A DNA stretch of 64,000 bases from Thermosipho melanesiensis BI429 (GTDB lineage Bacteria; Thermotogota; Thermotogae; Thermotogales; Fervidobacteriaceae): contig NC_009616.1 of the NCBI RefSeq assembly GCF_000016905.1, positions 1,302,001 to 1,366,000 of the forward strand, read 5' to 3'. The translations under genes and the position numbers were made by a program. Positions 23,259-26,172 of the stretch are shown piece after piece (the stretch's first letter is position 1; every line of letters starts with the position of its first letter). The notes below the pieces were generated by a model. That model worked only from the letters and a program-made list of their open reading frames with translations. It was not told the origin of the DNA and made no database searches.

Positions 23259-23317
23259 ATAACATATCAACGAAATATTTTTCTTTAATCATATCTTAAA
23301 AAAAGGGAGGGGTCAAG

Positions 23318-24637
23318 GTGAGAAGATTTTTGTTATTTTTACTAGCTGCTTCTTTGTTGTTGGTAGTTTTAAGCGGATGTATTGGTAACTTTTTTAAGAC
23401 ATATGATTACAAAGTAAAAACTAACATTGGTGAAGGTGAAGTTTTGCCACCAAAAAGTATTGTAAGTTTTGAGTTATTAAAAGATGGAAAACCAATTTCT
23501 TCTCTGATTAAGGTGTATAAAGATAGTCAACTAGATTATGAAGCAACAAAGCTAGCTCTAAAGCACGATTTTATTGCAGAAGATGAAGGAAAATATAAGG
23601 TTGAGGTCTATGATCAAGATAACGAATTAAGGAAAGTATTGAATTTTAGTGTTACTGCACTTGAAAGAGAGATTTATATTGACGGTGGGATAATCTATTA
23701 TGATAAATTATCAGAGGAGATACTATCTCCAGCCACAACTTTGTGGTTAAGATTTTACAAGTATACTGAAAAAACTTTAGATGATGGTACAAAATCACCT
23801 GAAAGAGCAAGATTAAAGTTAGTAGATCCAGATAGTGATGGAATATATGATAGTTGGGAAGAATTACCAGCTGCTTCATCTACTGAGCAAGGATGGATTG
23901 TTATTCAAAATCCTTTGAATATGTACAATACAACTTGGGAAGTAAGTTACATAGAATACAGAGAAAATTCAATAAAGGTAGTTTACAGTGGAGTTTCAGG
24001 GGATTATAAAGGATATTCTTTGACTTCGACAATTTCGAAAGTTGGTTTTGAACTTAATAAACGATATGCAAGATATGTTATGAATAATGATGGTAGTAAG
24101 CATTTATATGGCCAATTTATGATTCATGAAAGGTATAATTCTGATAATAAACCAGAATTCAGAGTATCCGTGGATAAATCAAGTGCTAATCCAGGGCAAG
24201 AAGTAAAGGTTTTTGTGAATGCAGAACATGTTGCAGATTTTGCGAAACTTTACGATGTGAGATATATGCAATTTGCTTTAAAACATAGCACAATGCTTGT
24301 GCTAGATTCTGTGGAACTCCCAGAATTCATGGATGGATTAAAAGAAACAGGCACGTATTTAAACAATGATAATTCAGTTGTAATTTATAAGGGATATTTC
24401 GATGAAGAAGATGAAACAGCAAATGCAACATCAACAATTGCCATTTTAACTTTCAAACTTTCAGAAGATGCTACAGGAGCTCTTTCAGTTAATCTTGTGT
24501 ATGAAGGTTGGTGGGATTCATATGGAAATTACCCAGATTTGCCAAATCCTATAATAAAGGATAAAAACAATTCAAATGTTGATGGGTTTGTATTTGATCA
24601 TAATCCAGTAATAATCACCGTGGGAGGTGAAGAATAA
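23318..24637 (+). CDS. Lipoprotein with C-terminal cohesin-like domain
   Basis: The N-terminus is a classical lipoprotein signal with lipobox LSGC (Cys21), so the mature protein should be membrane-anchored outside the cytoplasm. Residues about 30-115 look like a beta-sandwich module, and 116-270 a second unrecognised domain. From about 280 to the end the sequence has the cohesin pattern: an opening RVSVDKSSANPGQEVKVFV, a strand LYDVRYMQFALKHSTMLVL, then DNSVVIYKGYF, TSTIAILTFKLSEDATG and a closing FDHNPVIITVGG. Cohesins bind dockerins, and the next gene, with which it overlaps by one base (TAATG), encodes a dockerin-bearing protease. The cohesin assignment is by eye and somewhat divergent. 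Confidence 0.75.
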   Translation: MRRFLLFLLAASLLLVVLSGCIGNFFKTYDYKVKTNIGEGEVLPPKSIVSFELLKDGKPISSLIKVYKDSQLDYEATKLALKHDFIAEDEGKYKVEVYDQDNELRKVLNFSVTALEREIYIDGGIIYYDKLSEEILSPATTLWLRFYKYTEKTLDDGTKSPERARLKLVDPDSDGIYDSWEELPAASSTEQGWIVIQNPLNMYNTTWEVSYIEYRENSIKVVYSGVSGDYKGYSLTSTISKVGFELNKRYARYVMNNDGSKHLYGQFMIHERYNSDNKPEFRVSVDKSSANPGQEVKVFVNAEHVADFAKLYDVRYMQFALKHSTMLVLDSVELPEFMDGLKETGTYLNNDNSVVIYKGYFDEEDETANATSTIAILTFKLSEDATGALSVNLVYEGWWDSYGNYPDLPNPIIKDKNNSNVDGFVFDHNPVIITVGGEE

Positions 24638-26115
24638 TGAGCAAAAGATTAATATCCATTTTTATAATAGTTTTGTTTGGTTTATTGTTATTTGCTAATT
24701 CCGTAGTTGAGCAAGCCATTCAATATGCAGAAAATGTAACACAAAAAATTAAACAATATGGATTTTTATGGTATGCAAGTCCAAATAAAGAATTTTTTGA
24801 AGAATTTGAAAAGTTCAATGTCACTTCTATTGATGAAATAATGAGAAAAATAAATGGAACAAGAGAGTTACCAGAAGAGGTTAAAAGCAAGATATTTAAT
24901 TATTTGAATTTGTTGAGAAATAATAATGGGAAAATAGCTCCTGATAGTATGACAACAACCGATGATTTAATGATGGCTTCATTTATTTTGATAAAACCTG
25001 AAAATATTACTGATAAGACCTTTTATAGATTAGAACCAGTTAAAGACCAATATATGCATGGAAGTTGTTGGGCATTTTCTACTGCTGCAATGATGGAAAG
25101 TGCTTATGCTGTTCAAGTTTTAAATAAAGAAGAAGGTAATATTAATAATTTGGTGGATTTTTCTGAACGATGGGCAGCGTATCATAATATTGATTGGGAT
25201 GTATATGTTAAATCAAAATACGAATATGTTCAAGATAAAAATTCGTTAGAAGGTGGAAATGTTTATTTCTCATCATACAATATGATTAGATATGGTATGG
25301 TAAAAGAAGAATCAGCACCATATGAAGATGTATATCTTGTATCTGATGAAGTTATTCCTCTACCACCACAAGCATATAGAGCACCAAGAATTAAGGCAAG
25401 TAAAACAGTAATGATTCCGGATGCGAAGAGTTCAAAGACTTTAGGTTATAGCTATGACGATTATATCAACATGATAAAAACAGCTTTAAAGAAGTTTGGT
25501 TCTTTATCAGTTGCATATACAGTTCCAAAAGACTTTGGTTCTTACAGTAAAGGTATCTATGTTCCAACAACTTCAGAAAACTCAGGAGGACATGCAGTTA
25601 CACTTGTTGGATGGGTTGATGGAAAAGACTTAGATGATGTTGTTCTTGCTGAAAGGGTTGATCCATCAGCTTCGACTATTTTGGATGTGGAGTTACCTGA
25701 TGGCTCCTACACGTACTATGATCCAACGGTAGATGCAACATTTACAACAAATTTGTTCTGGATAATAAAAAATTCATGGGGATATAGCTGGGGAGATGGA
25801 GGTTATTATGTAGTACCAGCAATTTCTAAAGAAGCATATGAGAATGGCAAAGTAGGTTGGTGGATGATAGAAAATAGAAATATGTATATATCTATTTTTG
25901 ATTCTTTAGCAAAACATGAAGGTGATAGCCTTGATTGTAATAATGATGGTGTGGTAAATATTGATGATTTTAAATATTTAGTTTCAAAGATTGGAACAAC
26001 AAATTCCGAAGAAATTTCAAAATTTGATATCTCTTTCCCTGAGGATGGAAAGGTTGATGGGAACGATGCTGCAACATGGGTTTATTTATATAACAAACTA
26101 TATGGTAAAAAGTAA
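24637..26115 (+). CDS. Secreted papain-family cysteine protease with C-terminal dockerin
   Basis: After a signal peptide (residues 1-21) and a propeptide-like region, the C1A protease domain shows the oxyanion Gln138 and catalytic Cys144 in VKDQYMHGSCWAFSTA, His319 in SGGHAVTLVGW and Asn379 in FWIIKNSWGYSWGDGGYY. All papain catalytic residues are therefore present. Residues about 432-490 form a dockerin: the first calcium loop and helix is DCNNDGVVNIDDFKYLVSKI; the second, more degenerate, contains FPEDGKVDGNDAATWVYLY. The start codon overlaps the cohesin-lipoprotein stop. I infer that the protease docks onto that lipoprotein at the cell surface. A bidirectional terminator follows. Confidence 0.88.
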   Translation: MSKRLISIFIIVLFGLLLFANSVVEQAIQYAENVTQKIKQYGFLWYASPNKEFFEEFEKFNVTSIDEIMRKINGTRELPEEVKSKIFNYLNLLRNNNGKIAPDSMTTTDDLMMASFILIKPENITDKTFYRLEPVKDQYMHGSCWAFSTAAMMESAYAVQVLNKEEGNINNLVDFSERWAAYHNIDWDVYVKSKYEYVQDKNSLEGGNVYFSSYNMIRYGMVKEESAPYEDVYLVSDEVIPLPPQAYRAPRIKASKTVMIPDAKSSKTLGYSYDDYINMIKTALKKFGSLSVAYTVPKDFGSYSKGIYVPTTSENSGGHAVTLVGWVDGKDLDDVVLAERVDPSASTILDVELPDGSYTYYDPTVDATFTTNLFWIIKNSWGYSWGDGGYYVVPAISKEAYENGKVGWWMIENRNMYISIFDSLAKHEGDSLDCNNDGVVNIDDFKYLVSKIGTTNSEEISKFDISFPEDGKVDGNDAATWVYLYNKLYGKK

Positions 26116-26140
26116 AGATAGTAGCTATTAGTAATGAAAA

Positions 26141-26172
26141 ATCCCCAGGGGTTATCCCTGGGGATTGTTTTT
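26141..26172. terminator. Bidirectional terminator between the protease and molybdenum-enzyme operons
   Basis: A perfect 10-bp stem ATCCCCAGGG/CCCTGGGGAT (26141-26150 and 26156-26165) has a five-base loop and a T-rich tail on + (TGTTTTTT). On - it is followed by TTTTTC. The xdh stop codon lies in the loop. Confidence 0.9.

Follow-up and report, generated by a model that had tools for sequence, protein, structure and literature searches.

Two adjacent genes in the window (the whole stretch of 64,000 nucleotides of Thermosipho melanesiensis BI429 that was analysed), designated A and B here, very probably form a dedicated two-gene surface-protease cassette, in which the secreted protease B would be held by the lipoprotein A through a dockerin-cohesin contact. 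This reading is built on the domain sequences, on structure models of the two proteins and on genome comparisons. The features of the unit, in positions of the window, are:

23305..23312, + strand: putative ribosome-binding site GGGAGGGG, 5' of gene A (sequence reading)
23318..24637, + strand: gene A, an open reading frame with a GTG start for a lipoprotein of 439 aa (with AF2 model), with two beta/Ig-like regions in its N-terminal part and a cohesin at the C-terminus
23369..23380, + strand: lipobox LSGC, residues 18-21 of A, with Cys21 as the predicted lipidation site (sequence)
24158..24622, + strand: cohesin domain, residues 281-435 of A (Pfam PF00963, AF2 and Foldseek)
24622..24629, + strand: putative ribosome-binding site of B, GGGAGGTG, within the end of A (sequence reading)
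24637..26115, + strand: gene B, for a secreted papain-family (C1A) protease of 492 aa with a C-terminal dockerin
24637..24699, + strand: signal peptide without lipobox, residues 1-21 of B (cleavage point approximate; helix 2-18 in the model)
25024..25896, + strand: papain catalytic domain, residues ~130-420 of B (131-393 in Pfam)
25927..26103, + strand: dockerin, residues 431-489 of B (Pfam PF00404 and model helices)
25933..25968, + strand: dockerin calcium loop 1, DCNNDGVVNIDD, residues 433-444 of B, with D433, D437 and D444 invariant
26026..26067, + strand: dockerin calcium loop 2, DISFPEDGKVDGND, residues 464-477 of B, with D464 invariant
26140..26166, no strand assigned: bidirectional intrinsic terminator closing the A-B unit (12-pair stem and T run)

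The stop codon of A and the start codon of B overlap as TAATG on the + strand. As both neighbouring genes, a relA/spoT-type gene upstream and a xanthine dehydrogenase-type gene downstream, run on the opposite strand, A and B constitute a stand-alone two-gene unit. In the whole 1.9 Mb genome, one cohesin and one dockerin were detected at E <= 0.001, both of them on this pair. A cellulosome, with a multi-cohesin scaffoldin and dockerin-bearing carbohydrate-active enzymes, was not found, the sole dockerin detected in the genome being that of a protease.

At the sequence level, A has the signal peptide and lipobox cysteine of a bacterial lipoprotein. Cys21 was nearly invariant across family A, and a lipobox was present in every member with a readable N-terminus. 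In the mid-region of A, an acidic motif resembling thrombospondin type 3 (residues ~172-184, DPDSDGIYDSWEE) suggests a further candidate calcium site; the Pfam model TSP3_bac gave weak matches in two relatives.

The cohesin was recognised mainly by its fold. PF00963 matched residues 283-387 of A with an E-value of 5.7e-4 and 20.5 bits in the whole-protein Pfam scan, and the same site with 23.3 bits in the whole-genome search, both values being lower than the curated cut-off of 24.1 bits; only 3 of the 24 members of family A reached an E-value of 0.1. The AF2 model of A, derived from 14 sequences, had a mean pLDDT of 78.6, with values of ~90 or more across most of residues 281-390/396, and its C-terminal domain presented the cohesin jelly-roll. 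The best PDB matches for A in Foldseek were the Clostridium cellulolyticum cohesins 2vn5 and 1g1k (E 7e-6 to 8e-6; TM 0.66-0.68 on the target), and the non-cellulosomal cohesins 2xdh of Archaeoglobus fulgidus and 2jh2 of Clostridium perfringens were also among the best matches. Among the comparisons with the PDB, cohesins were returned by that of the fold alone: PDB sequence searches with A, with the A1 profile and with the diverged homologue from a Mesoaciditoga MAG (L073) returned none. hhalign produced no usable alignment when the profile of the A cohesin was compared with one known cohesin sequence or with the cohesin of L073.

Four residues of the A cohesin (Y316, Q318, D422 and G423) were invariant in the 24 aligned pairs. 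In a hand alignment with a C. thermocellum cohesin, whose reference sequence is identical to 1ohz and 2ccl, Y316 and Q318 fall on N37 and D39, strand-3 residues known to contact dockerin. Because no program yielded an alignment, and the Pfam coordinates agree with that by hand only if compensating indels are allowed, this mapping is treated as a lead, by which Y316 and Q318 may mark the dockerin-binding face of A.

Identification of B as a protease was straightforward. Peptidase_C1 (PF00112) matched with an E-value of 2.3e-23, far above the cut-off, and the AF2 model (pLDDT 81) showed a papain fold, for which the best PDB matches in Foldseek were falcipains, Der p 1 and cathepsins. With the catalytic residues Q138, C144, H319 and N379, all invariant in 24 homologues, B has both the fold and the Gln, Cys, His, Asn set of peptidase family C1A in sequence and model. 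For the dockerin, the Dockerin_1 model gave an E-value of 4.3e-4 and 20.9 bits in the whole-protein hmmscan, under the cut-off of 22.9 bits, and 24.1 bits in the whole-genome search, over it; 21 of the 24 members of family B were matched at E <= 0.1. Three helices (442-450, 457-463 and 475-489) form the dockerin fold in the AF2 model, and the sequence contains two EF-hand-like calcium loops, with D433, D437, D444 and D464 invariant in the 24 homologues. Loop 2 has a two-residue insertion relative to a 12-residue loop, and its P468 was kept in 22 of the 24 members. Since the two loops differ and the second carries the insertion, a single binding mode of the B dockerin appears more likely than a dual one.

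The Mesoaciditoga pair exceeded the cut-offs for both the cohesin (E 6.7e-7, 30.0 bits) and the dockerin (E 6e-8, 33.2 bits), and most of the doubt that the marginal window scores had left is thereby removed. Although each of the window matches is marginal alone, chance is excluded as their origin by the residue conservation, the recurrence of Dockerin_1 in family B, the scores of L073 and the fold matches of A. The sequence-only reading had described A as a lipobox protein with a C-terminal cohesin, translationally coupled to a papain with all catalytic residues and a C-terminal dockerin, and had placed the two docking modules at residues ~280-436 of A and ~432-490 of B; these assignments and limits proved correct, the cohesin falling below the Pfam cut-off but matching cohesins in fold. 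Pfam searches and a genome scan had been proposed there as checks, and gave the scores reported above and, at E <= 0.001, no dockerin in the genome other than that of B.

Homology searches of 103 Thermotogota genomes found gene A in 25 and gene B in 31. A was located directly upstream of B on the same strand at all 26 assessable loci (in 25 genomes), adjacency being counted where the neighbourhood was complete; the pair of G100 is split by contig ends. One genome (G046) harbours two diverged pairs as a tandem A-B-A-B (L065:3792-9611, G046:C33), so that nature itself provides a test of how specific the pairing is. G048 retains A in truncated form and lacks B, beside the same leuS neighbour as in G042 and G044. 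Outside Thermotogota, the matches in the named genome collection were papains only, none of them next to a recognisable cohesin of the A type and a few of them with weak dockerin-like matches. In the trees of the A cohesin and of the B protease, the window pair was placed near pairs from other families (G062 and G100), and the pair was absent from the genomes of its own family outside the genus in the searches of the 103 genomes; on these two grounds, horizontal arrival of the window pair is likely.

Other docking modules were observed in the phylum. At L158:5064-9806 (G025:C17), a lipoprotein of 1580 aa combines a cohesin, a dockerin, a caspase-like Peptidase_C14 domain and Fn3/Ig domains, and a lipoprotein of 269 aa that matches cohesin weakly is encoded upstream of it; this locus may represent another docking system linked to a protease in the phylum. 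Four consecutive dockerin matches were present on neighbouring genes at L151 (G102:C64:1-8473), in a genome with no Pfam cohesin match, the genes including those for a NosD/beta-helix protein and for a protein with weak amidase/NlpC-P60 matches. Long frames of ~1200-1650 aa at L124-L130, mostly from family f10, genus g32, had cohesin matches over the Pfam cut-off, and in G063 and G064 another long frame also matched the dockerin model.

The predicted manner of anchoring differed between the papains with and without a dockerin. The dockerin-less Thermotogota paralogues (L143-L149) carried a lipobox in 7 of 7 cases and had no recognisable cohesin partner, whereas a clear lipobox was present in none of the 26 dockerin-bearing papains, one of which has an ambiguous LLAC (Fisher p about 2e-6, related genomes being counted as independent). 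From this contrast it appears that enzymes of the same type may be attached by a lipid of their own or via a docking pair.

A related alternation was found at the chromosomal site itself. In G012, G013 and G015, sibling species from the same family, this site is occupied by another two-gene operon, which encodes an Ig-like lipoprotein and a fervidolysin-type lipoprotein subtilase, and the flanks of the papain pair in G014 and of the subtilase pair in G013 share 92-93% DNA identity. The subtilase was present in 16 of the 18 near-complete genomes of the family, and the papain pair only in the remaining two, the window genome and G014, so that the two were mutually exclusive in all 18 (p 0.0065, with relatives counted as independent). 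Across the phylum, co-occurrence was rare, at 3 of the 29 papain-pair genomes (p about 2e-6, counted in the same way). The same-site subtilase operon, the near-identical flanks and the mutual exclusion are our grounds for reading this as a site at which one predicted surface-protease cassette is exchanged for another. The first gene of the subtilase operon (L165, L166 and L167) codes for a lipoprotein of 535-543 aa that is Ig/MG3-like and may correspond to A.

In the mechanism that we propose, A would be exported, lipidated at Cys21 and placed on the cell envelope, where the N-terminal beta domains would act as a stalk for an outward-facing cohesin. B, which has an ordinary signal peptide, would be exported as a zymogen of the papain family, and its dockerin captured by the A cohesin in a calcium-dependent contact, one enzyme per anchor. 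The outcome would be a cell-bound endopeptidase substituting for a self-lipidated protease, and its role would probably be in feeding, external proteins being cut to peptides for uptake. The computational support covers the domain identities, the catalytic and calcium residues, adjacency, exclusivity and replacement at the site; lipidation, the contact between A and B and its calcium dependence are what we infer beyond these, as is the feeding role, which is drawn from the occurrence of surface proteases at the corresponding locus of related species. As a tentative extension, docking by cohesin and dockerin might serve Thermotogota generally as a calcium-dependent substitute for lipidation in holding proteases at the cell surface. 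It would come as an exchangeable cassette that takes the place of self-anchored proteases from another catalytic class at a fixed chromosomal site and possibly releases its enzyme at low calcium.

The proximity of a lipoprotein of Ig-like fold to a protease gene, with translational coupling, could also be explained if the C-terminal domain of A inhibited the papain or assisted its folding as a chaperone, shielding the cell from it, the dockerin serving only to stabilise B via calcium. Chagasin-type inhibitors are Ig-fold proteins, and staphostatin beside staphopain is a comparable pairing. However, Pfam matched no inhibitor family in any of the 24 A members, the best fold matches were cohesins rather than chagasins, and no inhibitor was among the listed Foldseek matches. 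The dockerin-less papains would need an inhibitor equally, yet they have a lipobox and no partner gene, and we consider this explanation improbable.

Binding of each module to some other ligand is very unlikely: the B dockerin would attach to another surface protein and the A cohesin to a different ligand, the genes being co-transcribed for a common task. According to PMC9012536, archaeal and bacterial cohesins and dockerins do occur with unclear partners, and Pfam could miss additional partners that score weakly. Against this, no other cohesin or dockerin was detected in the genome at E <= 0.001, A and B are inherited and decay together, and the match between the presence of the partner gene and that of the dockerin would have to be a coincidence. 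It is more improbable still that A is an adhesin attaching the protease to an extracellular substrate or surface instead of to the cell. The Ig/PKD-like beta domains of its N-terminal half are known from adhesins; the conserved lipobox with Cys21 in family A and the replacement by self-lipidated proteases both point to the cell envelope. The preferred reading, that of B docked on A, suggests that a cohesin-dockerin pair can act as a simple enzyme-tethering device. The system comprises a single socket, a single plug and a single enzyme, with a clear genomic contrast between lipobox and dockerin, which makes it accessible to tests on the two domains in purified form; pairs from thermophiles may serve as heat-stable coupling parts for biotechnology.

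The sequence-only reading had regarded the pair as a surface tether of one anchor and one enzyme outside any cellulosome, and as a candidate for an undescribed system. Such a tether is supported by the comparisons made here, as it fits the sole modules, the adjacency at 26 of 26 loci and the trade-off between lipobox and dockerin; the lipoprotein subtilase at the equivalent site and the truncated A without B in G048 also speak for it. The claim of novelty stands in part: the dedicated one-anchor/one-protease cassette, swapping with a self-anchored protease, appears to be undescribed, whereas cohesin-dockerin tethering is known, as are non-cellulosomal pairs. In a literature search that took in few subscription papers, there was no match for a phylum-wide cassette of this type that is an alternative to self-lipidation and exchanged at a fixed site, nor any relevant match linking Thermotogota with dockerins.

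Non-cellulosomal cohesins and dockerins occur in bacteria and archaea, with roles described as unclear in PMC9012536 (citing Peer 2009). Those of A. fulgidus (2xdh) and C. perfringens (2jh2) resemble A-B in the lack of a scaffoldin and in fold; A-B differs as a conserved unit of one anchor and one protease found phylum-wide, whereas the partners and roles of the known modules are mostly unclear according to the same paper. In Ruminococcus flavefaciens, RflaF_05439 has papain-like/NlpC-P60 modules and an X-dockerin bound to the ScaE cohesin (PMC3573020). Like B, it is a protein of cysteine-peptidase fold held at the surface by dockerin and cohesin, but it belongs to the NlpC/P60 fold class and to a full cellulosome with a sortase-anchored ScaE and no dedicated pair. 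For a Clostridium thermocellum S8 protease with a double dockerin, surface anchoring by dockerin and cohesin was also proposed (reviewed in PMC12484212); unlike B, it is of the subtilisin family, comes from a cellulosomal host and binds the cell-bound scaffoldin ScaD. The fervidolysin-type operon differs from A-B in that both genes have a lipobox and the serine protease is self-lipidated, with neither cohesin nor dockerin, but it shares with A-B the same site and a two-gene organisation in which the second gene encodes a secreted protease.
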